Assembly: GCA_017998715.1 (NCBI GenBank)
Contig: JAGOCP010000009.1
Span: forward strand, 1 to 32,971
Direction of reading: 5' to 3'
DNA: 32,971 nucleotides
Origin: Thermoanaerobaculia bacterium
Lineage (GTDB): Bacteria; Acidobacteriota; Thermoanaerobaculia; Multivoradales; JAGPDF01
In this document: positions 12,031-29,437 of the stretch, piece after piece
Position numbering within the stretch: the first letter of the stretch is position 1
How the letters are laid out: each line of letters opens with the position of its first letter
Program-made: the position numbers and the translations under genes
Notes under the pieces: model-generated
What the model was told of the DNA's origin: nothing
Seen by the model: the letters and a program-made list of their open reading frames with translations, nothing else
Databases searched by the model: none

Positions 12031-12888
12031 CTAGTTCTTGGCGCGCCGCAGGAGAACGTCGCCGTTGAAAGTCTTGAACAGGATCTCGGGACCGCCGCCG
12101 TTGATGGTGCCGATCATCTCGCGCGATACGACGACGTGGTAGCGACCCTTCTCCTTCTTCGTCTCCGGCCCCTTCAGCGTCTCGGTCGAAACCGCGACAT
12201 CGAAATCGGAGTAGATCTCGCCGTTGTCCGACTGCAACCGCACGGTCGCCTTGAGGCCGGGCGGGAAGGTCACGTCGACATCGCCGTTGAGCGTCGAGAA
12301 GGCCATCGGCGCCGCCGCCATGGCGGCGGAGAAGACCACCGTCACGTCGCCGTTGACGGTGTTGGCGGAGACCGGTCCGCGCACGTTGGTCACCCGGATC
12401 TCGCCGTTGGTGTTGCTGACCTCGACCTCGCCGTCGATACCCACGACCTCGATGTCGCCATCGTTCACGGTCGAGAGCGCGATCGAGCTGCCGGCCGGAA
12501 CCTGAATCTCCAGATCGACGGCGCGCGCCCAGGATTCGGCCGAGATCGACACCTTGTTCCCCGCCTCTTCAGCCTCGAGCCCGATCGCGGTATTGGGAAT
12601 CCGGCGCATGCCGGCGCGATCGCCGGGAAGGTCCCGCCCCTTGCGCTTGTCGTCCTCGTCCTCCGCCCGCGACTGCGCTTCGACGACCACCTCGCGGCCC
12701 GTCCCGCCGGTCACCTTGATCGAGCCCATGACCAGCGAGACCTCGAGCTCCGCCGGCTTCGCTGGATCGGAGAGCGGCACCACGAGGTGCTCGGCGGCGG
12801 CGGGCGCCGCGTTCATCGTCCAGGCGAAGGCGACCGCGAGCAGTGCCCTACCGAGAGTGGCTTTCCGGAACTTCGCTTCCATGTTCAT
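12031..12888 (-). CDS. DUF4097 family secreted protein (putative adhesin-like beta-helix), copy 2
   Basis: The 285-residue product has a signal peptide (MNMEAKFRKATLGRALLAVA, cut near APAAA-EHL) and a run of short beta-strand repeats such as STVNDGDIEV, SNTNGEIRV, NTVNGDVTV, STLNGDVDV and KTFNGDVLL. The spaced NGD/NGE turns are typical of DUF4097, predicted to form a right-handed beta-solenoid on the cell surface or in the periplasm. The ATG at 12888 is chosen because GGGGAGAG lies 6 bp before it. It follows a paralogue by 22 bp and is the last gene before the terminator. The function is unknown; the link to a sigma/anti-sigma pair suggests an envelope stress role. Confidence 0.85.
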   Translation of the reverse strand: MNMEAKFRKATLGRALLAVAFAWTMNAAPAAAEHLVVPLSDPAKPAELEVSLVMGSIKVTGGTGREVVVEAQSRAEDEDDKRKGRDLPGDRAGMRRIPNTAIGLEAEEAGNKVSISAESWARAVDLEIQVPAGSSIALSTVNDGDIEVVGIDGEVEVSNTNGEIRVTNVRGPVSANTVNGDVTVVFSAAMAAAPMAFSTLNGDVDVTFPPGLKATVRLQSDNGEIYSDFDVAVSTETLKGPETKKEKGRYHVVVSREMIGTINGGGPEILFKTFNGDVLLRRAKN

Positions 12889-12910
12889 CGCATCTCTCCC
12901 CACGCGAGCG

Positions 12911-13804
12911 TCAGGAACGCTCACGAATCGTGATGTCGCCGTTCAAGGTCTGACAGGCGAGGCCGATCCCGCCGCCGCCGAGGGTGGCGGCGGATCTCCC
13001 GCCCACTTCGTGATGCTGCCGCCCGCCGGACCGCGAGCGCGAGCTCGTCGGCGGGAGTTTCGCCAGCTCGAACGGGTAGTCGGTGTAGACCTCGCCGTTC
13101 ATCGTCGCGAAGGAGAGCTCGGCGCCGAGCCCCTTCGGAAAAGCCAGATCGATATCGCCGTTCACCGTCGCGAAGCTGCAGTCGCCGGTTGGCAGCGCGG
13201 CGAAATCGACCTTGAGCTCGCCGTTGACGGTATTCGCATCGACGATCCCGGAGACCCGCACCAGGGTGACGTCGTCGTTGACATGGTCCACCTCGAGGCG
13301 CCCGCTAATGCCAGTGATGCGGATCGCACCCTCGTTGACGTCGCTCACGTCGAGATCGATCTGGCGCGGGACCTTGAGCTTCCAGTCGAAAGTCACTTCG
13401 TAGTCCCGTTCTTCGTGATCGCAGCAGCAGTCTCCGCGCCGCTTGTGCTCGCGGCCTCTGCAGCTCCAGGGTCCGTGCTGGACGAGCTCGAGCCGCCCAG
13501 GCTGCTCGCTCACTTCGAGCGTGACCTCCTGCCGGGCGAGCGCCAGGTCGGCGGCGCTCCTCGCCTCGAAGGTCTGGGTGAGCGTGAGCTCGACGGTGTC
13601 GCCGCTGCCGCCCTCGATCTCGATCGCTCCGTTCAAGTTCTCGATGACGAGGGTCCGCTGTCCGTCGACGGCGGAAAGCGTGAAGCTTCGGGTGACGGTT
13701 GCGCTCTGTTCGAGGGCGGCGAGCGCTGCCGGAACCGCTCCGGCGAGGGCGATGACGGCGACGGCGGAGTGCAGCGACGGACGCCAGCGGCGGTCGGGAT
13801 TCAT
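12911..13804 (-). CDS. DUF4097 family secreted protein, copy 1
   Basis: The 297-residue protein begins MNPDRRWRPSLHSAVAVIAL, a signal peptide ending near AALA. Its beta-repeat segments include IENLNGAIEIEGG, HVNDDVTLV, NTVNGELKVDF, ATVNGDIDLAF, ATMNGEVYTDY and QTLNGDITI. A Cys cluster (SCRGREHKRRGDCCCDHEE, about 139-157) interrupts the repeats and is absent from the paralogue; it might bind metal. The start codon shares one base with the stop of the anti-sigma gene (TGATG), so translation is probably coupled. Like its neighbour it is probably anchored in or secreted to the envelope. Its role is unknown. Confidence 0.85.
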   Translation of the reverse strand: MNPDRRWRPSLHSAVAVIALAGAVPAALAALEQSATVTRSFTLSAVDGQRTLVIENLNGAIEIEGGSGDTVELTLTQTFEARSAADLALARQEVTLEVSEQPGRLELVQHGPWSCRGREHKRRGDCCCDHEERDYEVTFDWKLKVPRQIDLDVSDVNEGAIRITGISGRLEVDHVNDDVTLVRVSGIVDANTVNGELKVDFAALPTGDCSFATVNGDIDLAFPKGLGAELSFATMNGEVYTDYPFELAKLPPTSSRSRSGGRQHHEVGGRSAATLGGGGIGLACQTLNGDITIRERS

Positions 13805-14703
13805 CAGGCGCTCCTTCCGAGGCGGTCGCGCAGGTAGCCGCGCACCACCGGGTCGAGTTGCGGGTTGTCGAGCAGCTGCTCGAGATCGCGGCGCGCGGCG
13901 GGCTCGCCGGATTCGAGCAGCAGATCGATGAGCGACAGCGCGACCAGCGGCGACTCCTGCCGCGCGACCGCCGCCACGAAATCGCCGCGGCGGTCGCCGC
14001 GCGTGGCGAGCGGGCGCAGGGCTTCGAGCGCCGCGAGCCGGACGTTGACGTTGGGATCCTCCAGCAGCCGGGTGAAGAGTGCCGCCGCGACCTGCTCGCG
14101 CTGATCGGCCGCCGCGGCGCGAGCGTTCGGCTCGCCTGCGCCACGCGGATTCTCCTCGCCGCCGCGCGCCTGGGCGATGCCGAAGTCGCGGTTCAGGCCG
14201 ACCTCGCGGCTGTAGGCAACGCCCTGCAGGCGGTCGGAAACCGAGCTCTTCTCGAGCAGGGAGAGCGCCACCATCGTATGCAGGTCGCCGACTTCGCGTC
14301 GCAGGGTCGCGACGTCGTAGCCGCTGCGGCCGAACAGGAAGTAGCCCAGGCCGAGGCCGACGAGCAGCATCGCCGCGAGGGCGAAGAGCCGGCTGTCGAA
14401 AGGTCCGCTGGCACGCGCGCCGCGAAAGGCGAGCGGCGCCTTGGCGACTCCGCGGCTTTCCGCCGCGAGCTCCGCCGCGATGGCCGCATCGAGGCGGGCG
14501 CGCATCCGGGCGGTCGGCACGGTTTCGCCAGATTCCGTCAGGCCCTGCCAGAGCGCTTCGAGATCCGCCGCCTCGGCGGCGCAAGCGGCGCAACCGGCGA
14601 GGTGAGCCTCGAGCTCCGCGCGCTCGGCGGGTGCGAGGTCGTCGTGGAGGCGGGCTGTCAGGCGCTCCTGCATCGTTGCGCAAATCGTCGCTACGCGGTT
14701 CAT
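13804..14703 (-). CDS. Transmembrane zinc-finger anti-sigma factor with HEAT-like C-terminal region
   Basis: The 299-residue protein has an N-terminal zf-HC2 module with H34, C38 and C41 (HLAGCAAC), the ZAS fold that holds ECF sigma factors inactive. A single membrane helix lies at about 105-125 (FALAAMLLVGLGLGYFLF). The C-terminal part, about 200-299, reads as HEAT-like helical repeats (EDPNVNVRLAALEALRPLA, then SLIDLLLESGEPAARRDLEQLL). The C-terminal part should lie in the periplasm and may sense a signal or partner. The start overlaps the sigma factor stop as ATGA, and the stop overlaps the next start as TGATG, so sigma, anti-sigma and DUF4097 genes are one translationally coupled unit. 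Confidence 0.88.
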   Translation of the reverse strand: MNRVATICATMQERLTARLHDDLAPAERAELEAHLAGCAACAAEAADLEALWQGLTESGETVPTARMRARLDAAIAAELAAESRGVAKAPLAFRGARASGPFDSRLFALAAMLLVGLGLGYFLFGRSGYDVATLRREVGDLHTMVALSLLEKSSVSDRLQGVAYSREVGLNRDFGIAQARGGEENPRGAGEPNARAAAADQREQVAAALFTRLLEDPNVNVRLAALEALRPLATRGDRRGDFVAAVARQESPLVALSLIDLLLESGEPAARRDLEQLLDNPQLDPVVRGYLRDRLGRSA

Positions 14704-15359: not shown

Positions 15360-15812
15360 TTACCGCGGCGGGCGGCGGGCGGGCGGCGCGCGCCGCGAGA
15401 GGCGGCTGGAGAGCTGGTGCGCGAGGTAGCCGCCGAGCCAGAGCGTCGAGGCCGCGAGGTGCAGCGCGAGCCATGCCTGCCGCCAGCCGGGTGCGGTCGC
15501 TGTCTGCAGGAGGTAGCCCGAAGCGACCATCGGCGCCGCAGTCGCCGCGAGCGCCCAGCCGCTGCGGCGCCGTGCGGCGATGCCCAGGCGGAGGCTCGCC
15601 CGGACGTGGCTCTGCCAGATCAGACCGAGCGCAAAGACCAGGAGAGGCGCCGCGACCACGTGCAGGTGTTGCACGTCTGGCTGCCAGGGATGATTCACCA
15701 CTGCGAACGGATCGTCCGGTCGGACGAAGTAGCGCATCCAGGCGTAGACCAGCCCGCCGCCGCCCACCAGAATCGTCGCGACGTGAAGGAACCAGGCCTC
15801 GAGGCGCGTCAT
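15360..15812 (-). CDS. Four-helix His-rich membrane protein, probable b-type cytochrome-like electron carrier
   Basis: The 150-residue protein has four predicted membrane helices (about 8-24, 49-67, 86-103, 112-131). Histidines lie in or next to them: H10, H41, H49, H51, H69, H118 and H132. This pattern resembles the small cytochrome b561/DUF4405-like proteins that bind heme b and move electrons from quinol across the membrane. Its ATG overlaps the stop of the FMN-binding protein gene (ATGA), and known extracytosolic flavin systems pair such proteins with FMN-binding domains. I infer that it reduces the flavoprotein. Heme binding is not shown by a strict motif, so the assignment is tentative. 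Confidence 0.65.
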   Translation of the reverse strand: MTRLEAWFLHVATILVGGGGLVYAWMRYFVRPDDPFAVVNHPWQPDVQHLHVVAAPLLVFALGLIWQSHVRASLRLGIAARRRSGWALAATAAPMVASGYLLQTATAPGWRQAWLALHLAASTLWLGGYLAHQLSSRLSRRAPPARRPPR

Positions 15813-16429
15813 GGCTTCGGTTCCGCAGGGGCCGCAGGCGCTGCCGGGGCGGCAGGTGCTACGGCACCGGCGCGCTCCGCGAGCAGGCGATGGAGTGCCA
15901 ACGCGCGACGCGCTGCATCCGTGGTGGCGCGGGCGGTGAGCGTCGCGCCGGTCACCGGCCGGATCGCCCGGCCGAGCTCCGTTTCGGCGGCGAGCGCCCG
16001 GCCGTCGAACTGCGCGTACCACTGCCGGCGCGGCAGGTAGTCGGGCGGTTCGTCGAACGACAGCACCTCGACGCGCACGATCGCACCCGCCGGATCGATC
16101 GCCACCATCACCGTCTCGGCGAGGGTGCGCACGCGATGGCTGTCGAGATAGGCGGTGCCGCAGAGAGGGGAACGTGCATCCGGTCGCACCGCGCGGTAGG
16201 GATGAACGACGGCCGAGGCGGGTTCGGTGCCGGCGAGCTCGCGGGCGCGCTCGACCTCTGCCGCCGTGAGGTAAACCGAGCCGCGTTCGATCGTGCAACC
16301 CGGAAAGACGAGAGCCAGCGCTTCTTCGACGGAAAGCAGGACCTTCGCCGCCGCCGGCGCCGCGGTCAGCACGACGGCGACTGCGAGCCCGAAGGCGAGC
16401 GCCAGCGGAGCGAAGGTCTTTCCTCTCAC
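15809..16429 (-). CDS. Secreted FMN-binding domain protein (flavinylation target)
   Basis: The 206-residue protein has a signal peptide (about 1-28, ending TAAPAAA). An FMN-binding domain (NqrC/RnfG type) follows and closes with PVTGATLTARATTDAARRAL. In this family ApbE attaches FMN by phosphoester to the Thr of the (S/T)GAT motif, here T163. The acidic residue usual a few positions before the motif is missing (RAIRPVTGAT). The C-terminus is an Ala/Pro tail (AAPAAPAAPAEP). ApbE is encoded two genes upstream in the same run and a heme-like membrane protein just downstream, so a role as periplasmic flavin electron carrier is likely. It starts 5 bp after the porin stop. Confidence 0.85.
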   Translation of the reverse strand: MRGKTFAPLALAFGLAVAVVLTAAPAAAKVLLSVEEALALVFPGCTIERGSVYLTAAEVERARELAGTEPASAVVHPYRAVRPDARSPLCGTAYLDSHRVRTLAETVMVAIDPAGAIVRVEVLSFDEPPDYLPRRQWYAQFDGRALAAETELGRAIRPVTGATLTARATTDAARRALALHRLLAERAGAVAPAAPAAPAAPAEPKP

Positions 16430-16433
16430 CGTC

Positions 16434-17876
16434 TCAGAAGATATAGCCCAGTGCGAGATTGAACTGATCGACGCCGGTGCCGGCGCCGTTGTCGACGTCC
16501 TGCCAGTCCGCCTTGAAGATGAGTTGCTCGATCGGTTTCCAGTTGATGCCGACGGTCAGCGTCTCGATCTCGTTGGCCGGGTTGCGCGCGAATCCCGCCG
16601 GCACCGCCGCCTGGGTGTCGTAGCTCTCCCAGCGCGCGAACGGAACCAGCGATTGGCGGCTGCCGGCGACGAGCGCGAGAACGTCGTAGCCGGCTTCGAC
16701 GTAGTAGCCGGACAGCTCCTCCCCCACCGAACGGTTGCCGGTGAGACCGAGCTTGCCGTTCAGCCGGGCGACGCCGTCGAGGTCTCCTTCGACCCAGAGG
16801 CCGCGCAGCTCGAGGCCACCGCTGCGCCACTCGGCATGCGCTTCGAGCAGCTGTGTGCCGACGCTCAACTCGCCCGTCGCATCAGCCAGGCCCTGCGCCG
16901 AGTCGCCCACGTACCCCGAGACGCCGGCGACGAAGCCCGGAATCGCGGTCCAGTCGATCCGCCCAACCCAGGCCAGATTCTCCGCCACCGCCTTCGCGCC
17001 GTTCTGTCGCGCCGAGCGCACGCCGGAAGCGGCAAAGCGCTCGGCCTCCAGGCCATTCATGAGGTAGGTGCGATAGGTAATCGGACCGAGCTCACCGAAG
17101 ATCCCGACGCCATTCTCGCGCCAGGTGGTCGGCAGGATCGCCTGCTCGATGCCCGGGCGGCGCGCGCCGAGATAGGTCGTCGGCTCGTGGAGCTCGTTGA
17201 TGAAGCCCATCGGCACCAGGAGGAGGCCGGCGCGGGCGTTCACCTCGGGGCGGATGCGGCGCTCGAGGTAGGCGAACTCGACCGCCACCTCGCCGCGCTG
17301 CCCCTCGCCCGCCTTGGCATGCTCCCACTCGATCTCCGAGTTGAACAGCCAGTCGTCGTTCCATTTGTAGCCGAAGTAGAGGACGGCGCGGAGGAAATCG
17401 AGCTCGTCCTTGCGGCCCGAAGCGGCGCCGTCGTCGCGCTGCCCGGCGAAGCCCTGGTAGAGCATCTCGCCGTAGCCGCCGATCGAGAGCCCCTGCTCGA
17501 CGGCGTAGACCTTCGACGCCGCCGGGCCGAAGCCGGCGGTGCCGGCATCCGCGACCGCCGCCGGCGCGCTTTCGCCGAGGCGCATCTGCTCGAGGTCCGC
17601 GGCCAGCAGATCGATCCGCCGCGCCAGCTCGGCGAGCTCGGGCGCCGGAGGTGCCGACGGAGGGGGCGGGGCGGCCTTCGCCTGCAGCGCCGCGAGCGCC
17701 GCTTTGAGCTCGGCGACCTCGGCGGCGAGGCGGCGCAGCTCCGTCTCGCTGTTCAGAGTGGCGTCCGCCGCCGCGGCTTGAGCGCCACCCGGGGAGGCGA
17801 CGGACGAGAGCGGTATCGACAGGGTGAGCGCGACGGCGAGCCGCTTCCAGACACGAGACCTCAACTGGAGGTGCAT
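16434..17876 (-). CDS. OprP/OprO-like outer-membrane porin with N-terminal coiled coil
   Basis: The 480-residue protein has a signal peptide (about 1-36), a heptad-rich segment (ETELRRLAAEVAELKAALAALQAK, then ELAELARRIDLLAADLEQMRL) and from about 115 a beta-barrel. Barrel features are alternating aromatic strands (GGYGEMLYQGF, VLYFGYKWNDDWLFNSEIEWEHA, RAGLLLVPMGFINELHEPTTY) and a final strand ending LALGYIF; the last Phe is the BAM recognition signal. Relatives are trimeric phosphate or anion porins. Here it sits between ApbE and the FMN-binding protein, which suggests entry of iron or another electron acceptor, as inference. The ATG at 17876 has AGAGGAG about 9 bp upstream. Confidence 0.85.
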   Translation of the reverse strand: MHLQLRSRVWKRLAVALTLSIPLSSVASPGGAQAAAADATLNSETELRRLAAEVAELKAALAALQAKAAPPPPSAPPAPELAELARRIDLLAADLEQMRLGESAPAAVADAGTAGFGPAASKVYAVEQGLSIGGYGEMLYQGFAGQRDDGAASGRKDELDFLRAVLYFGYKWNDDWLFNSEIEWEHAKAGEGQRGEVAVEFAYLERRIRPEVNARAGLLLVPMGFINELHEPTTYLGARRPGIEQAILPTTWRENGVGIFGELGPITYRTYLMNGLEAERFAASGVRSARQNGAKAVAENLAWVGRIDWTAIPGFVAGVSGYVGDSAQGLADATGELSVGTQLLEAHAEWRSGGLELRGLWVEGDLDGVARLNGKLGLTGNRSVGEELSGYYVEAGYDVLALVAGSRQSLVPFARWESYDTQAAVPAGFARNPANEIETLTVGINWKPIEQLIFKADWQDVDNGAGTGVDQFNLALGYIF

Positions 17877-17935
17877 CGACTAGACTCCTCTTGTTTCATG
17901 GCCCGCGGCAGAAGTGCCGGGGGCAGTGGAACCGA

Positions 17936-17981
17936 GAGGGCGGCGGCCAGGAACTTTTGCGAGGCCAGGCCGCGCGCCCTC
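17936..17981 (-). other. Intercistronic stem-loop between apbE and the porin gene
   Basis: On the minus strand GAGGGCGCGCGGCC pairs with GGCCGCCGCCCTC (about 13 bp, one bulge) around a 19-nt loop containing CAAAAGTT. It begins a few bases after the apbE stop. No U-run follows the stem, so it is more likely an mRNA processing or stabilising hairpin than a full terminator. It may set a different expression level for the porin. Confidence 0.45.
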
Positions 17982-17985
17982 GCTT

Positions 17986-19203
17986 CTACGAAAATCCTCC
18001 GATCGTCTGGATGCGCAGCTCAGGGACGAGGGCTCGAACCCGCCCGGCGAAGCCGGGACTGACGAGCGCGCGCAGGCCCTGTGCTTCGATCAGCAGCAGC
18101 ACCGCTTCGGCCCGCCGTTCGCGGCTCCAGCGCGACATCAGCGCCACTCCCTCCGCCTCCCCGAGCACGTACAGTCCCGTCGACCTGCAGTCGGCGGCCG
18201 TAGCCTCGGTCGCGAGAACGGTCGCGCTGCCGATCTCGCGTGCCGGACGGCCGGTGCGCGGGTCGAGCAGGTGCCCGATCCGCACGCCGTCGACGACGGT
18301 CGGGTGCTCCGAGTTGCCGGAGGTCGAGAGCGAGCCGGCGGCGGCATCGAGGGTCAGGGCGAGCACCGCCCGCGAGCGGTCGCGGGGATCGGCCACCGCG
18401 ACCTCGACCGGGGCCCTGCGCCCCGTCCAGGCGAGTTGACCGCCGAAGTCGAGCTCGATGTGAGCTCCCGGCGCCATGGCTCGCGCTGCAGCGAGCGCTG
18501 CGTCGAGACCCGCTCCTTTGCCGAAGCCGCCCTCCTCGATGCGCGCCCCACCGGGTTGTCCGACCCTCCGGTGCTCGCGGTCGAGCTCGAGTCGCCCGGC
18601 GTCGACCAGCCGCCGCGCCGTTTCGATCTCGCTCGCGACCGGCAGGCGGCCGCCGCTGCGCAGCCCCCAGGCCTCGACGAGCGGCGCGACGGTCGGGTCG
18701 AAGGCCCCGCCAGTCTCTCGCCAGCAAGCGATCGCTGTCTCGACGGCGTGCCAGGCGAGCGGCGAGAACGCCACCTTCGCACCGGACGGCGCGGCGTTGT
18801 AGCTGACCAACTCGCTCGCCTTCAACCAGGTCGAGAGACGGCGCTCGGCATCTTCGACGGCGGCGACGATGGCGTTGCTCACCGCGAGGCCAGTCGGTCG
18901 GTCGACCGCTTCGATCGAGAGCCGGAGAGCGGATCCCATGGCGGCGACATCGCGCTCGACGATCGCGGCGCTCACCGGCTGCGCTCCCGCAACGGCCAGC
19001 GCCAGGAGGACCGCTCGCCCACCGCGGCGGCGCGGAGTCGGCGGATGGCCGATTTCACCAGCCTGTGCACAGCGGGCGCAGGGCAGGGAGTTGGCGGAGC
19101 TCGCTTTCGGCCGGCGCAGGAGCCGGCGGAGCGTCAGCGCGAGCGCCACCGCGGCGGCGGCGGTGACGATCCAGAACTGCGGGTCGGCGACGGGCAGCGA
19201 CAT
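17986..19203 (-). CDS. apbE: FAD:protein FMN transferase (ApbE) fused to a FeoB-associated Cys-rich membrane segment
   Basis: The 405-residue frame opens with MSLPVADPQFWIVTAAAAVA, one membrane helix, RRLLRRPKA and then LPCARCAQAG; this is the layout of the small Cys-rich proteins that often follow FeoB. A second hydrophobic segment (VLLALAVAGAQPVSA) leads into ApbE: AAMGSALRLSIEA, GGAFDPTVAPLVEAWGL, GGFGKGAGLD, IELDFGGQLAWTG, STSGNSEHPTVVDG, GHLLDPRTGRPA and AADCRSTGLYVLG. ApbE moves FMN from FAD to a Thr of target proteins, with Mg. No ATG or GTG separates the two parts in frame. The start lies 1 bp after the FeoB stop. The natural target is probably the FMN-binding protein at 15809-16429. 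Confidence 0.85.
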   Translation of the reverse strand: MSLPVADPQFWIVTAAAAVALALTLRRLLRRPKASSANSLPCARCAQAGEIGHPPTPRRRGGRAVLLALAVAGAQPVSAAIVERDVAAMGSALRLSIEAVDRPTGLAVSNAIVAAVEDAERRLSTWLKASELVSYNAAPSGAKVAFSPLAWHAVETAIACWRETGGAFDPTVAPLVEAWGLRSGGRLPVASEIETARRLVDAGRLELDREHRRVGQPGGARIEEGGFGKGAGLDAALAAARAMAPGAHIELDFGGQLAWTGRRAPVEVAVADPRDRSRAVLALTLDAAAGSLSTSGNSEHPTVVDGVRIGHLLDPRTGRPAREIGSATVLATEATAADCRSTGLYVLGEAEGVALMSRWSRERRAEAVLLLIEAQGLRALVSPGFAGRVRALVPELRIQTIGGFS

Positions 19204-19204
19204 C

Positions 19205-21223
19205 TCAGGAGACTCCGGCCAGCCGCAGACCGTGGAAGGCGACGAAGGCGCCGATCCAGGCGACACCGGTCATCCAGCAGAACTGCAGCATCGCCCATTT
19301 CCAGCTCTTCATCTCGCGGCGCACGGTGACCACCGTCGCCAGGCATTGCATCGCCAGGACGAAAAAGACGAGCAGCGAGACGGCCGTCGCCGTGGTCAGG
19401 AGAGGCGTGCCGTCGTCGCGTTTCGCGCGATGGATGCGATCGAGGATGCCGGCGTCCTCTTCGTCCGGGGCACCTACCAGCACGGCAAGCGTCGAGACGA
19501 AGACCTCGCGCGCGGCGAAGGCGGTGAGGACGCCCATCGTCAGGCGCCAGTCGTAGCCGAGCGGCGCGAACAGCGGTTCGACCGCGCGGCCCAGCTTGCC
19601 GGCGAAGCTCGCCTCCTGCTGATGCGACAGGGTGAGGCCGGCCGCTTCGGCGGCAAGGCGCTCGGCGGCGTTGGGCTCGGTTGCCGCGAGCGTCTCGGCC
19701 TGGGCGGTGAGCGCGACTGCCGCCGCCGGCGGCTCCACCTTCGGATAGGCCGAGAGCCACCACATGACGAAACAGATGGCGAGGATGACCGTGCCCACCG
19801 TGCGCAGGAACGACCAGCCCTGCTCGAAGGCGTTGGCGAAAGCGACGCGGAGCGACGGCCACTTGTAGGTCGGCAGCTCGAGCACCATCGGCCGCGACTT
19901 GCCCGGCAGGAGCGTCCGACGCACCAGAAAGGCGCTGCTCATCGCCGCGAGCGCCCCGAGGAGGTAGCAGCCGGCGAAGGCCACGCCGGCAAGGAGCGGG
20001 CGGTCGGCGAACAGGAAGTTGGTGAGCAGGACGTAGACCGGCAGCCGCGCCGAGCAGCTCATGAACGGCGCCACGAGGATGGTCGCGAAGCGATCGTGGC
20101 GATCGGGGATGAGCCGAGTCGCGAGAATCCCGGGGATGGCGCAGGCGTGCGACGAGAGCAGCGGCACGAAGGCGTAGCCGGGCAGGCCGAAGCGGCAGAG
20201 CAGGCGGTCCATGACGAACGCCGCACGCGCCAGGTAGCCGGTGTCTTCGAGAATCGTGATCAGGAAGAAGAGCAGGCAGATCTGCGGCAGGAAGACGACC
20301 GTACCGGAGACGCCGCCGATGAGTCCGCCGACGAGGAGGTCACGCACCGCGCCGGCCGGCATGCGCGCCTCGAGGAAGCCGCCCAGGTTGGAGAAGATCG
20401 CCTCGATCATGTCCATCGGCACGCTGGCGACGGCGAAGATGGCCCAGAACAGGCCGGCCATCACCAGGTGGAAGATGACCAACCCGAGGATCGGATGGGT
20501 GAAGGTCTCGTCGATGCGATCGAGCAGCGTGTCGCTGCCACTCCCCAGGGCGTGGGCGCCACCGACGCTCTCGCCGACCACCGTCTCGGCCCAGAGCTCG
20601 AGCTCGGTCGCCGATATCGCAGCGCGGCCGGGCTCGGGCGCGCGCGCGGCGTCCGCGGCGCACACCGGCGCCAGCGCCGCCAGCAGCTCGTCGATCCCCT
20701 TGCCGCTGCGCGCGGCGATCGGGATCACCGGCGCGCCGATAGCGCGCGACATCTTCGCCAGATCGAAGGAGAGGCCGCGCCGGTGCGCCAGGTCGATCAT
20801 GTTGAGCGCGACGACGAACGGCACCCCCTCGCGCGCCAGCTCGCCCACCAGCATGAGATGCCGCGAGAGGTTCGTCGCATCGGCAACGACGATCGCCGCC
20901 GCCGGCTTCGCCCCGTCGCTGCCGGCGAGCGCCCGCACGGCGACCGTCGATTCCGGCAGATCGAGCTTGAGGCTGTAGAGACCCGGAAGGTCGACGACGT
21001 CGAACGCTTCGCTGGCGCCGGAGGCGAGCGGCAACTGGAGCCGGCCGACGCGCAGGTCGGTGGTCGTACCGGGGAAGTTCGCCGTCTTGGCGCGCATCCC
21101 GCACAGGCGGTTGAACAGGGTCGTCTTGCCGGTGTTGGGATTGCCCAGTAGGAGCAGGCGCCTGAGCGGCACGCTCCGATTCGCCCCGGCGCGGGTCGTC
21201 GATACCGGGCCCGCGACGCTCAT
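19205..21223 (-). CDS. feoB: Ferrous iron transport protein B
   Basis: The 672-residue protein begins with a cytosolic G domain: G1 GNPNTGKTT (27-35), NFPGTTTD (49-56), G3 DLPG (78-81), G4 NMID (141-144) and a G5 region ARSGKGIDEL. A helical spacer follows, then two gate-type membrane halves with FLPQICLLFFLITILEDTGYLARAAFVMDRL and PFMSCSARLPVYVLLTNFLF; the Cys of the latter is conserved in FeoB pores. It imports Fe2+ across the inner membrane. The usual length is about 600-780 residues. The ATG at 21223 overlaps the feoA stop as ATGA, which fixes the start and implies coupled translation. Confidence 0.96.
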   Translation of the reverse strand: MSVAGPVSTTRAGANRSVPLRRLLLLGNPNTGKTTLFNRLCGMRAKTANFPGTTTDLRVGRLQLPLASGASEAFDVVDLPGLYSLKLDLPESTVAVRALAGSDGAKPAAAIVVADATNLSRHLMLVGELAREGVPFVVALNMIDLAHRRGLSFDLAKMSRAIGAPVIPIAARSGKGIDELLAALAPVCAADAARAPEPGRAAISATELELWAETVVGESVGGAHALGSGSDTLLDRIDETFTHPILGLVIFHLVMAGLFWAIFAVASVPMDMIEAIFSNLGGFLEARMPAGAVRDLLVGGLIGGVSGTVVFLPQICLLFFLITILEDTGYLARAAFVMDRLLCRFGLPGYAFVPLLSSHACAIPGILATRLIPDRHDRFATILVAPFMSCSARLPVYVLLTNFLFADRPLLAGVAFAGCYLLGALAAMSSAFLVRRTLLPGKSRPMVLELPTYKWPSLRVAFANAFEQGWSFLRTVGTVILAICFVMWWLSAYPKVEPPAAAVALTAQAETLAATEPNAAERLAAEAAGLTLSHQQEASFAGKLGRAVEPLFAPLGYDWRLTMGVLTAFAAREVFVSTLAVLVGAPDEEDAGILDRIHRAKRDDGTPLLTTATAVSLLVFFVLAMQCLATVVTVRREMKSWKWAMLQFCWMTGVAWIGAFVAFHGLRLAGVS

Positions 21224-21513
21224 TCCGGCTTGGGCGCGCTCGCGTCCGCAGCCGTCTCGCTCGCCACCACCAGCCGCACCGCGACGCTCCTGGCGAGCCC
21301 GATGCGGGTCGAGCGCACCTCGACGATGCACGGATCGCCGCTGGTGCGCACCCGCAGGCGGCACCCTTCGGTCATGCCCATGGCCGCGAGCAGGCAGGCT
21401 TCGCCCTCCGACAGCTCTTCGCACGACAGCCGCGCGACGCTGCCCACCGGCAGGTCGGCGAGGCGCTGCAGGACCGGCAGACGGGCCGGGAGTTTGCCGT
21501 TCGTTTCAGACAT
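21220..21513 (-). CDS. feoA: Ferrous iron transport protein A
   Basis: The 97-residue SH3-like protein shows the FeoA pattern: LADLPVGSVARLSCEELSEGE, LLAAMGMTEGCRLRV, GDPCIVEVRSTRIGLARSVAVRLVV. It is a small cytoplasmic partner that helps FeoB work. It is slightly longer than the common 75-85 residues because of an N-terminal lead and the tail ETAADASAPKPE. It overlaps fur by 8 bp at its start and feoB by 4 bp at its end. The fur-feoA-feoB order leaves little doubt about its role in ferrous iron uptake. Confidence 0.93.
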   Translation of the reverse strand: MSETNGKLPARLPVLQRLADLPVGSVARLSCEELSEGEACLLAAMGMTEGCRLRVRTSGDPCIVEVRSTRIGLARSVAVRLVVASETAADASAPKPE

Positions 21514-22009
21514 GAAGATGGGCTCCGGTGACCGGTTTGGCGGCCTGCTGGACCGGCGCGGCCGCCGCCCGCTCGTCGTCGGCGCAGCCGCGGCAGACGC
21601 CGAGGATCTGCAACTGGTTCAGGCGGCCCTCGAAGCCGTGCGCGCGGCAGATCTCGCCCAGCAAGGCGGTGATGCCCGGGCTCACGAACTCGACCATCCG
21701 GCCGCAGCAACGGCACGCCATGTGGTCGTGGCGCTGGCCGGAATGCAGGTGCTCGTAGAGATAGCTGCGGCCGGAGAGCCGCACCTTGTGCGCCAGCCCG
21801 GCCTGCACGAGGAGCTCGAGATTGCGGTAGACGGTGGCGCGTGAGATGGCGAGTCCGCGCTGGTGCATCGCGGTGAGAATCGAGTCGGCGTCGATATGCC
21901 CGTGCTGTGCGAAGATTTCGCGAATGAGCGCCCGCCGTTCGGCCGTGGCTCGCAAGCCGCGGGAGCGCAAGAAGCCCAGAAACTGTTCCTCTTCAGGCGT
22001 CGGATTCAT
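21506..22009 (-). CDS. fur: Fur-family iron-responsive repressor
   Basis: The 167-residue protein has an N-terminal winged helix (FLRSRGLRATAERRALIREIF through GLAISRATVYRNLELLVQAGLAHKV), the metal-site HDH at 94-96, and two CxxC pairs at 99-102 and 139-142 that bind structural zinc. It senses Fe2+ and represses iron uptake genes. Fur is preferred over Zur or PerR because feoA follows with an 8-bp overlap. The ATG at 22009 gives the normal N-terminus; a longer reading upstream would run through the promoter. A palindrome (22014-22030) lies between the promoter and the start codon. The C-terminal tail after 145 (Ala/Gln-rich, ending AHLHV) carries an extra His pair. Confidence 0.9.
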   Translation of the reverse strand: MNPTPEEEQFLGFLRSRGLRATAERRALIREIFAQHGHIDADSILTAMHQRGLAISRATVYRNLELLVQAGLAHKVRLSGRSYLYEHLHSGQRHDHMACRCCGRMVEFVSPGITALLGEICRAHGFEGRLNQLQILGVCRGCADDERAAAAPVQQAAKPVTGAHLHV

Positions 22010-22108: not shown

Positions 22109-22468
22109 ATGACCTCGAAGATCCGCCTGCCGCGCCACCATCGGCTGCGCTTCCAGCGCCTGCCGCTTCCTACATGGCTGCGGCTCTCGGTCCTCACCGT
22201 CGGTTGGGTGCTGATTCTGCTCGGCATCCTCGGGCTCTTCCTGCCGATCCTGCAGGGCGGCCTGATGCTGGCGCTCGGCTTCGCCCTGCTGTCGATCGGC
22301 AGCCAGACGATCCATCTCTGGTTCCGCAGCTTCATGGGCCGCTGGCCGCGGATCTGGAAACGCCTCGAGAAGTTGCGCCGCAAGATCCACCTCCGGCTGC
22401 ACAAGGCGAGCGGCGGTGCGAAACCCGCCGCCGGCAAAGACGGTCCCCCCCCGCCCGGCGCACCCTGA
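22109..22468 (+). CDS. Small PGPGW-like two-helix membrane protein
   Basis: The 119-residue protein has a basic N-terminus, two closely spaced membrane helices (about 25-44 and 47-66: LSVLTVGWVLILLGILGLFL then GGLMLALGFALLSIG) and a long basic, Pro-ending tail (KRLEKLRRKIHLRLHK, then PPPPGAP). The GW-LLGLLGLFLPILQGG core resembles the PGPGW putative membrane family, although the PGPGW motif itself is altered. The function is unknown. It diverges from fur, its ATG being about 37 bp from that promoter's -35, and converges with citrate synthase. Confidence 0.75.
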   Translation: MTSKIRLPRHHRLRFQRLPLPTWLRLSVLTVGWVLILLGILGLFLPILQGGLMLALGFALLSIGSQTIHLWFRSFMGRWPRIWKRLEKLRRKIHLRLHKASGGAKPAAGKDGPPPPGAP

Positions 22469-24040: not shown

Positions 24041-26284
<2,244 letters not shown>

Positions 26285-26302: not shown

Positions 26303-26336
26303 GGTTGCGGCTGGCCGGCGTCAGCCGGCCGCAACC
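26303..26336 (+). terminator. Hairpin terminator downstream of katG
   Basis: GGTTGCGGCTGGC and GCCGGCCGCAACC can form a 13-bp stem with one G-U pair and an 8-nt loop. It lies 19 bp after the katG stop and overlaps the last codons of the convergent fusion gene. Only a poor pyrimidine run (TCTTCC) follows. Confidence 0.45.
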
Positions 26337-29300
26337 TCTTCCAGGGCGGTCGCGAGCGCGGCGAGCAACAATTCGGCGTCCGCGGCGCTGAAACACAGCG
26401 GCGGACGGATCTTCAGCACGTTGTGGTGCGGCCCGTCGGTGCCGATGAGCACGCCGCGGCGGCGCATGCGAAGGGCAACCTCCTCCGCCTCCGCTCCCGC
26501 CGGCTCGAGCGTCGCGCGGTCGCGCACCAGCTCGACGCCGAGGAAGAGACCGGCGCCGCGCACGTCACCGATGAGCTCGTGACGCTCCGCCAGCCGGCGC
26601 AGCCCGGCGAGGAGGGTCGCGCCGACCGCGGCAGCGTTCGCCTGCAACCCCTCCTCTTCGACGACCTCGAGCGTGGCGAGCGCGGCAGCGCAGGCCGCCG
26701 TCGAGCCGCCGAAGGTGGAGAAGAACTCCATGCCATTGGCGAACGCCGCCGCGATCGCCGGCGTCGTCACGACCGCCCCCATCGGATAGCCGTTGGCGAT
26801 CGGCTTGCCGAGAACGACGATGTCCGGTACCACGCCGTAGCGCTCGAACGCCCAGAAGCTCTCCCCCGTGCGCCCGAAGCCGGTCTGCACCTCGTCGGCG
26901 ATGCACAGGCCGCCAGCCTCGCGCACCGCGGCGTAGGCCGCGGCATAGAAGTCGCGCGGCGGGAGGATCTGCCCGCCGACCGAGGGCAGGGTCTCGGCGA
27001 GGAAAGCGGCGATCTCGCGGCCGCGCGCCTGCGCGCCGGCGATCGCCTCGGCGACCCGCCCGGCGTAGCGCGTACCGGCTTCGCGATCGGCGGGGTCGGC
27101 GGGGTCGGCGGCGCGGAACTCGCCGCGATAGGTGTCCGGCACCGGCACGAGGTGCACCCAGTCGGGTCTCCCCTCTCCGCCCGGCCCGTCGTGCTTGTAG
27201 GGGGAGAGATCGATCAGCGTCGTCGTGTGACCGTGATACGCCCCCGCCATGACCAGCATGTCGCGCCGCCCGGTCGCCGCGCGCGCCAGACGCAGCGCGA
27301 GCTCGTTCGCCTCGCTGCCGCTGGCGGTGAAGTAGCAGACCGAAAGTGCGGCCGGGAACTTTGCCGTCAGGCGGCGGGAGTATTCGAGGATCGTCGGGTG
27401 CAGGTAGCGCGTGTTGGTGTTGAGCAGCGCGAGCTGCGCCGTGACCGCCTGCACCACCTTCGGATGGCTGTGGCCGACATGCGGCACGTTGTTGTAGGCG
27501 TCGAGGTAGCGCTGCCCGTCGATGTCCCAGAGCTCGGCGCCGAAGCCGCGCACGATCGCCAGCGGCTCGGCGTACGACAGGCTGAGATTCGCCCCGAGGC
27601 GTTGCCGGCGCTCTGCGAGGAGCGCGCTGCGGTCGGGCCGCGCGGGCGGGAAGAGCTCCGCCGGCACCCGCGCGACGAGATTCGGATCCGGGCAGAGCGA
27701 GAGCCAGAGCGGCCGCTCCGAGGGCCGGCAGGAGCCGATGAAGTCGCCGCGGCCGTCGAGCATGTCGACGACGAGCTGCAGATGCAGGTGCGGCGGCCAG
27801 TTGCCGTTGACCGGAAAGTCGCCGAGGCTGGCGAGCCGCTCTCCCCTGCGGACGATCGCGCCCGGTTCGAGACCGGCGAGCGACTCGCGCGAGAGATGGC
27901 CGTAGAGGGTATGGAAGGTGAACGGACCGCGCTCGTCTTCGACGCGGTGCTCGAGCACGATGCACGGGCCGTAGTCGAACGGCGCGGCGTTGTCGGCGAA
28001 GCTGTGGACGATTCCCTCGAGCGGTGCTGCGACCGGCGTGCCGGCGGAGAGAAAAATATCGAGTCCGAGGTGAACCGTCCGCCACTCGTCGCGCTCGTCG
28101 CCGCGGTGGCGGTAGGCCTCGCTCGAGTAGACCGGCCGCGCCTCGTCGTAGCCACCGATGGCGGCGACCGCCCCAGCCGATCGAATGCGCGCGAAGACGC
28201 GCTCCGTCCACGCCGCGACGTCCGCGCGCTCGGCGGGCGAGCCGAGCTCCGTGCTGCCGGCGCTCCAGTCGGCGTAGACGAGCGGCACCCGCTCGAGACC
28301 GCTCGAGATGTCCGGCTCGAAGATCGGCGCGAGCTCCGCACGATGTCGCTCGAGCCAGGCGACGACGCGCGGCGCGTCAGGTTGCGCCGGGTAGCCGCAC
28401 GCCGCCCTCCAGGCGTAGAGCGTGCGGCGCGGGTGCGCCTCGGAGAGTGCCTCGAGCAGCGCCCAGGCCGGCCGCTCGCTCACCGTCAGGTAGTCGTTGT
28501 CCGGTTCGACGGTGCGCTGGTAGGCCGAGTTGGTGACACTGACACAGAGCCGCAGGCAGACGAGCGCCTGCATGAGCTCGAGCTCGGCCTCCTGCAGCGG
28601 ATGCGCGGCGTGGTAGCCGGCGAGCAGGTGGCCGATGCCGGCGACCGGATCGCCGAGGCCCATCGCGGCGTAGGCCGCGGCGGTCGCCGCTTCGCAGACC
28701 ACGTTCGAATGGCAGAGGTCGCCGAAGTCGATGACGCCGGCGACGACCGCGGCGGATCCGGGACCGGAACCGAAACCGGTCACGACGATGTTGTTGTCGT
28801 TGGCGTCGTTGTAGATCACCCCCAGGCGCAACCGGTCGAGCGCCGGCCGCACGCGCTGGTCGAAGTCGGCGAGCCAGCGTTCGACCAGCGCGCGCCGGCG
28901 GCCATCCTCGATGTAGTGCAGGTAGTCCCGGATCCAGCCCGCCTGGCGCAGATCCCACTTGAGCTCGCGGTGAGCAGCTGGCGAGTCGAATTCGGCGAGG
29001 CCGCGGTCGAGCGTGCCGAGCGTCGCGCCGAGGCTCTCGAGCAGCGCAGGCGGCGGACGGCGGACGGTGCAGACCTCCGACCAGAGCCGACCCGGCAGGA
29101 AGGTCAGCAGACGGACCCAGTGGTGCTCCCCGTCGGGCCCGGCGATCGTCAGCAGGTCGGCGCCATCGAGCGCCGGAATTACCTTCTGCAGCGCCAGTCC
29201 GGGCTCGCGCCGCGCAAGATGGGCGAGCGCCGCATGCTGCAGCTCGAGGTGCTCGCGCCTCTCGCCGGCGTGGGCGATCTTGAGGACGTAGCTTCCTGCC

Positions 29301-29437
29301 GGCGTATCGATGCGGAAGTTGAGGTCGTTCTCGCCCGCGAGAGCGGTGGTCTCGCCGGCGACGCCGAAGCGCGTGTGCGCGATCGCGACGGCGTCGGCGA
29401 TGGCCAGGCCGGGCCGCGGGGAGTGGATCCTGGGCAT
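26321..29437 (-). CDS. Three-domain fusion: APH-type kinase, M23-like domain, class III aminotransferase/phospho-lyase
   Basis: This 1038-residue protein has three parts. Residues 1-370 are an aminoglycoside phosphotransferase/choline-kinase fold with NDANDNN (210-216, D211 catalytic) and IDFGD (236-240). Residues 430-575 are an M23-type lysostaphin fold with HLGLD (456-460), YGHL (512-515) and HLHL (550-553), so the metal ligands are kept. Residues 605-1038 are a PLP class III aminotransferase with [23 protein letters not shown] and PLP lysine K878 in [12 protein letters not shown]. Kinase and phospho-lyase pairs of this kind act on hydroxylysine in animals (AGPHD1 with AGXT2L2), where the lyase removes phosphate and ammonia. 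I infer a similar two-step breakdown of an amino alcohol; the substrate is unknown. The ATG start at 29437 is plausible. Confidence 0.88.

Follow-up and report, generated by a model that had tools for sequence, protein, structure and literature searches.

Flavinylation genes are known to occur beside iron transporters. Meheust et al. (2021, PMC8238504) described clusters with VIT1, with P19/FTR1 and with PepSY proteins, the P19/FTR1 clusters carrying FMN-binding genes, and distinguished MsrQ-like, PepSY-like, DsbD and NQR/RNF-like membrane partners; Fur represses the PepSY-like clusters of Shewanella and Caulobacter. Huang et al. (2024, PMC11334425) have since described apbE-linked DUF4405 cytochromes and FezC. 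Porins have also been connected with ferrous iron uptake. In E. coli without TonB they are needed to supply iron to FeoB (PMC7315122), and in Geobacter a porin-feoA-feoA-feoB2 operon is predicted to be Fur-controlled, the 17-bp Fur box in delta-proteobacteria being WTGAAAATNATTTTCAW (PMC545781). Finally, VciB of Vibrio cholerae and the CCNA_03155-03159 locus of Caulobacter represent membrane-linked ferric reduction serving ferrous uptake (PMC12004947, PMC8238504).

The window analysed here (the whole stretch of 32,971 nucleotides) contains a seven-gene operon that resembles each of these systems in part. As in the systems of PMC8238504, ApbE and a periplasmic carrier, here predicted to be flavinylated, are combined with a putative membrane electron donor beside an iron transporter. 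However, the carrier is an FMN_bind protein, whereas the PepSY clusters use DUF2271; the membrane partner belongs to none of the five classes by Pfam; and the partners include FeoB and a porin. With the Geobacter operon (PMC545781) it shares a predicted Fur-controlled porin with feoAB and an equal 17-bp palindromic box layout, but no ApbE, FMN_bind protein or cytochrome b is listed for Geobacter, and the box arms here are TTGAGA/TCTCAA. The likeness to VciB and CCNA_03155-03159 (the latter Fur-regulated, as predicted here) lies in the proposed coupling of reduction to uptake. Unlike here, those systems have a PepSY-type membrane protein, with no porin or FMN_bind protein described. Clusters with FeoB and the word 'porin' are absent from the main texts of PMC8238504 and PMC11334425. 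Judged by those texts, flavinylation beside iron transporters and apbE-linked DUF4405 are already known, and FeoB and porin are the new partners.

The operon runs fur-feoA-feoB-apbE-porin-FMN_bind-4TM, all on the minus strand, as assigned from the ORF list, the sequence and Pfam/NCBIfam (Table 1). The fur/feoA and feoA/feoB junctions overlap by 8 bp and 4 bp, feoB and apbE are separated by 1 bp, apbE and the porin gene by 109 bp, porin and FMN_bind by 4 bp, and FMN_bind and 4TM overlap by 4 bp. Gene content, direction and junction sizes are those of the original prediction, which had been made from the sequence alone. The GTPase and membrane core of FeoB and FeoA are all present (PF02421, PF07670, PF07664, PF04023; Pfam). 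In a search of the source genome, which is 84% complete, this FeoB was the only one found, and the fur of the operon was one of two Fur-family genes.

Table 1. Features of the iron-associated operon, with positions in the window.
Feature	Position	Strand	Basis
Four-TM predicted diheme b cytochrome	15360..15812	-	No family model; invariant His51, His69, His118, His132
Periplasmic FMN-binding-domain protein, RnfG/NqrC-like	15809..16429	-	PF04205 E=1.8e-7, above cut-off
Flavinylation motif T-G-A-T	15941..15952	-	Predicted FMN acceptor Thr163, codon 15941-15943
Outer-membrane porin, N-terminal coiled coil, predicted 16-strand barrel	16434..17876	-	AF2, Foldseek, cassette conservation
apbE, FAD:protein FMN transferase	17986..19203	-	PF02424 E=1.1e-50
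ApbE N-terminal extension, FeoB-associated-like	19066..19203	-	PF12669 E=0.024, below Pfam cut-off
feoB, ferrous iron transporter, N-terminal GTPase	19205..21223	-	TIGR00437 9e-124, 414 bits, cut-off 316
feoA	21220..21513	-	PF04023 E=2.7e-9
fur, ferric uptake regulator family protein, 167 aa	21506..22009	-	PF01475 E=1.3e-23
Predicted Fur box, palindrome TTGAGAAAGAGTCTCAA	22014..22030	-	Ends 4 bp before fur start codon

Several other genes surround the operon. An ECF sigma factor gene (PF04542/PF08281; 14700-15326) begins 33 bp after the membrane protein gene on the same strand and is followed by probable anti-sigma and DUF4097 genes (12031-14683). An ECF sigma gene also lies downstream in L013, L014 and L032, so that the one in the window may belong to the operon transcript. 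On the other side, the intergenic region that holds the Fur box is bounded by the gene of a small divergent membrane protein (22109-22468; weak DUF454/PGPGW), which also adjoins fur in L013, L014 and L020. Further away are a catalase-peroxidase gene (KatG-like; 24104-26284, plus strand), beside which no Fur-box-like palindrome was found at up to one mismatch, and a large ORF (26321-29437) joining APH phosphotransferase, M23 peptidase and class-III aminotransferase domains.

A search with the four-helix membrane protein as bait recovered relatives from 27 of 59 near genomes and from 101 of 396 Acidobacteriota genomes (about a quarter), the latter representing 55 of 210 genera. Others came from contigs titled Planctomycetota, Latescibacterota and Myxococcaceae (Myxococcota). 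Neighbourhoods were compared for about 100 loci, and the counts that follow refer to 92 Acidobacteriota cassettes. The membrane protein gene was accompanied by FMN_bind in 91/92, by the porin in 84/92 and by ApbE in 72/92, and the commonest gene order was ApbE-porin-FMN-4TM. The operon order recurs in relatives, which makes the arrangement more than a chance one. All seven genes together are mainly limited to the source family, with similar arrangements in families f6, f16 and f81 and in Latescibacterota. Thus, where the original prediction had proposed an unusual complete pathway in one unit, the seven genes do lie together, but the cassette itself is widespread and usually has no adjacent feo gene. 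Two side observations concern cassette composition. In 21 loci (L034, L038, L040, L044, L053, L058 and 15 others), the gene directly after that of the membrane protein codes for a secreted protein in which a carboxypeptidase-regulatory-like domain is weakly recognised (same strand in 19/21). In family f38 a multicopper oxidase gene, a possible ferroxidase or copper link, lies between porin and FMN_bind (L057:5960-7393, minus strand; Pfam), and in L090 the corresponding gap is about as large.

Iron genes recur beside the cassette. A Fur gene was found within 10 kb in 26/92 cassettes from 14/35 families, nearly always at the head of the cassette and in the same orientation. Since the 40 cassette genomes that were searched whole hold about two Fur genes each, the chance of such adjacency is estimated at below 1%. 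Fur, FeoB, FTR1 or DtxR/VIT1 adjoin the cassette in 14 of the 35 families. FeoB does so in families f1, f6, f16 and f81. In the Latescibacterota locus (L039), feoA-feoB and a FeoB-associated Cys-rich gene lie downstream of the membrane protein gene, a different position that marks a separate joining event. Three loci have FTR1 in place of Feo (L018, L063, L102), and L041 and L046, for which the search gave no Fur, have the cassette flanked by a DtxR-type regulator and VIT1. A short FeoB match in L048 was rejected as spurious and left out of the counts. No recognised iron transporter or regulator was present within 10 kb of 65/92 Acidobacteriota cassettes. Some of the cassettes without box or iron neighbours may have other roles or other regulators.

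Immediately upstream of fur lies the palindrome TTGAGAaagagTCTCAA, which shares the 17-bp layout of Fur boxes and, in a genome-wide scan at up to one mismatch, has a single copy in the source genome. The sole exact copy in G001, G005, G006 and G007 also sits at this operon, so that with the source genome five genomes of the family carry it there. Across nine related genomes, exact copies lie upstream of this operon, of feoB (L114/L136, L121/L135, L127) or of TonB receptors (L120, L123, L131). One-mismatch copies were found near a ferritin-family gene (L133) and upstream of fur-FTR1 (L124). In three genomes (G008, G016, G099) the cassette thus has its operator in common with a distant feoB.

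Fur-box-like sites, defined by at most one mismatch with one position per arm relaxed to C/G after variants had been seen, numbered 68 in the 1.29 Mb of cassette loci that were retrieved. All but one (67/68) fell within 600 bp upstream of cassette genes, in windows that make up 7.9% of this sequence (binomial p ~8e-73, a value that is too optimistic as the loci are related; still, 24 groups are represented). A reversed-pattern control over the same loci gave one site. A box was found at 55/84 evaluable cassettes, including both Planctomycetota loci, and was absent from 29/84. In relatives it is conserved upstream of fur or of the cassette, and most sites belong to cassettes without an adjacent feo gene. 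It was absent at two sampled f4 genomes, one with no Fur (G018) and one with a single weak Fur match (G010), and at G381, in which no Fur was found. Absence of the box where a proper Fur is missing is expected if Fur reads it. From its conservation, the palindrome is predicted to be the Fur box of the clade. With a Fur-family gene and a conserved palindromic operator at both the operon and other iron genes, the features of a Fur regulon are present, and we regard it as very likely from these patterns that the operon is under Fur control. In a few clades without nearby apbE (L060, L061, L064, L069), two operator-like palindromes of the TTGCGA/TCGCAA type were seen per locus, before fur and before the porin gene.

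The flavinylation site of the cassette is strongly conserved. The residue corresponding to Thr163 is Thr or Ser in 98/98 aligned relatives with a residue there, and an FMN_bind domain with an [S/T]GA[S/T] acceptor is found together with an apbE gene. It is highly likely that the protein is a flavinylated carrier with covalently bound FMN. In the source family and in L020, the ApbE ORF opens on a single TM helix and a CxxC motif, resembling a FeoB-associated Cys-rich protein. The PF12669 match of this segment has E=7.6e-4 in G007 and is weaker in the source, both under the Pfam cut-off, and an equivalent extension is present in L013, L030, L032 and L020. This is a weak but pointed hint that ApbE serves the Feo pathway.

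The four-helix membrane protein matched no Pfam (E<=0.1) or NCBIfam family, and its homologues likewise had no NCBIfam match. By Pfam/NCBIfam it falls outside the described flavinylation classes (MsrQ, PepSY, DsbD, NapH, NQR/RNF and DUF4405), and the PepSY_TM domain of the PepSY-type reductase VciB is absent (Pfam). The AF2 model, of moderate confidence (pLDDT 74), contains helices at residues 3-29, 44-76, 79-104 and 108-141. The histidines listed in Table 1, two in helix 2 (51, 69) and two in helix 4 (118, 132), are invariant in 101/101 homologues, whereas a His in helix 1 is kept in only 62/101. Such a layout, a pair of parallel helices that each carry two His close to opposite faces, is the one in which two bis-His b hemes are arranged; the His of helix 4 are spaced 14 residues apart, as in FdnI/HydC. 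In hhalign comparisons, the profile matched DUF4405 (PF14358) at 73.9% (E=2.9e-5 for one comparison; reversed control 6.3%) over 58 columns that include His118 and His132, and the Ni-hydrogenase cytochrome b (Ni_hydr_CYTB) at 49% (reversed control 1%). Homology to DUF4405 is suggested only. The best PDB match in Foldseek was the E. coli HyaC cytochrome b, which was not significant (E=0.35), and profile-based sequence searches of the PDB gave nothing meaningful for this protein or for the porin. DUF4405 and FezC (PMC11334425) are likewise small membrane proteins with four His placed for b hemes and an association with apbE, in the case of FezC also with iron. However, DUF4405 has six helices against four here, and the present protein has no Pfam match and has FMN_bind and porin as partners. 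The protein is likely to be a diheme b cytochrome, heme being predicted from the histidines, and its homologues are probably small diheme b cytochromes of a new family, a distant relation of the DUF4405 and Ni-hydrogenase cytochromes.

The porin-like protein also matched no Pfam or NCBIfam family, and no sequence in the PDB profile search. Its AF2 model (pLDDT 72) has 16 strands and an N-terminal coiled coil, and Foldseek retrieved the general and phosphate porins OmpU, Omp-Pst1, OprP and OmpM1 with E about 1e-11 to 1e-12 and target TM-scores mostly about 0.55-0.7. A role in iron entry is plausible for it, given the E. coli porins that supply FeoB when TonB is absent and the predicted Fur-controlled porin-feoAB operon of Geobacter; gene order and co-regulation, along with general knowledge, are what tie it to iron. 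That it is the iron entry route across the outer membrane is a tentative assignment, to which we give slightly less than an even chance.

Taken together, these data point to a Fur-controlled, assimilatory, flavin-based periplasmic ferric reductase that feeds FeoB or another importer, a reading to which we assign a probability of about 0.7. The operon, Fur box, cassette, flavinylation site, histidines and iron-transport partners on which it builds were established by comparing sequences. When iron is scarce, Fur would leave the palindromic box and the operon would be transcribed. Small iron complexes, the presumed cargo, would enter through the porin. In the periplasm, ApbE would load the FMN-binding protein with FMN at Thr163, and the four-helix protein, a probable diheme b cytochrome, would supply this flavoprotein with electrons drawn from the membrane, the quinol pool being their most likely source; heme, donor and direction are presumed here. 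The flavoprotein would then reduce Fe(III), presumably free or weakly chelated, and FeoA/FeoB would import the resulting Fe(II). The main elements had been anticipated in the original prediction. Its Fur control agrees with the conserved palindrome, its flavinylation system with ApbE and the invariant acceptor Thr/Ser, and its heme-type membrane protein with the four invariant His and the remote likeness to cytochrome b. Its iron role is supported by the recurrent Fur, FeoB, FTR1, DtxR and VIT1 neighbours and the FeoB-associated-like N-terminus of ApbE.

The same cassette could instead be a general extracytosolic electron-transfer module, for respiration or redox homeostasis, of which only the expression is tied to iron, for example with flavin carriers replacing heme c carriers under iron shortage. 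The majority of cassettes have no adjacent iron transporter, clades such as f4 keep the cassette without box or proper Fur, a multicopper oxidase is inserted in L057, and an economy of the flavodoxin-for-ferredoxin type has been proposed for flavinylation (PMC8238504). However, the membrane partner looks heme-based, so the cassette would not be iron-free; the neighbours gained repeatedly and independently are Fe(II)/iron importers and iron regulators, not oxidoreductases; and an outer-membrane porin is a constant partner. We consider such a module unlikely. A chance adjacency of a Feo operon and a functionally unrelated flavin redox operon would account for the 109-bp gap between apbE and porin and for the many cassettes apart from feo. 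It is very improbable already from the statistics of Fur neighbours and box positions, and it is opposed by the box at cassettes whose feo is elsewhere, by FeoB/FTR1 adjacency having arisen several times in two phyla and by the FeoB-associated-like segment fused to ApbE.

The remaining alternatives concern the direction of electron flow. A porin, a periplasmic carrier and a membrane cytochrome are laid out as in porin-cytochrome conduits, which would suit outward flow for extracellular or dissimilatory Fe(III) reduction with the porin as part of the conduit. Nevertheless, the predicted 16-strand barrel is like that of general porins and not a large conduit barrel, the outer membrane cannot be bridged by a single FMN domain, and Fur repression suits assimilation rather than respiration on abundant iron; we regard outward flow as improbable. 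Least probable of all is that the module oxidises Fe(II), for detoxification or signalling, instead of reducing Fe(III). The direction of electrons is not readable from sequence, and this idea could draw on the multicopper oxidase in L057, the VIT1 adjoining the cassette in L041 and the boxed ferritin-family gene in G099. Yet control by iron limitation and coupling to FeoB, which requires Fe(II), favour reduction, and a low-potential flavin is a poor oxidant of Fe(II).

More broadly, the periplasmic ferric reductase proposed here leads to a wider reading that we hold at even odds: ApbE-porin-FMN_bind-4TM may be a distinct, undescribed, reductive porin system of iron acquisition. It would be controlled by a Fur box, independent of siderophores and TonB, equipped with a new family of diheme b cytochromes, present in a large share of Acidobacteriota and some Planctomycetota, and able to use whichever importer the host has (FeoB, FTR1, VIT1). 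Acidobacteriota abound in soils and are difficult subjects for genetics. Should the proposed function of the operon be right, it would offer one testable answer to how many of them supply themselves with iron, the cassette being recognisable in about a quarter of the sampled genomes together with a Fur operator. It would also add a new family of small cytochromes, which goes unnamed in annotation pipelines, and FeoB and an outer-membrane porin would join the known partners of protein flavinylation.
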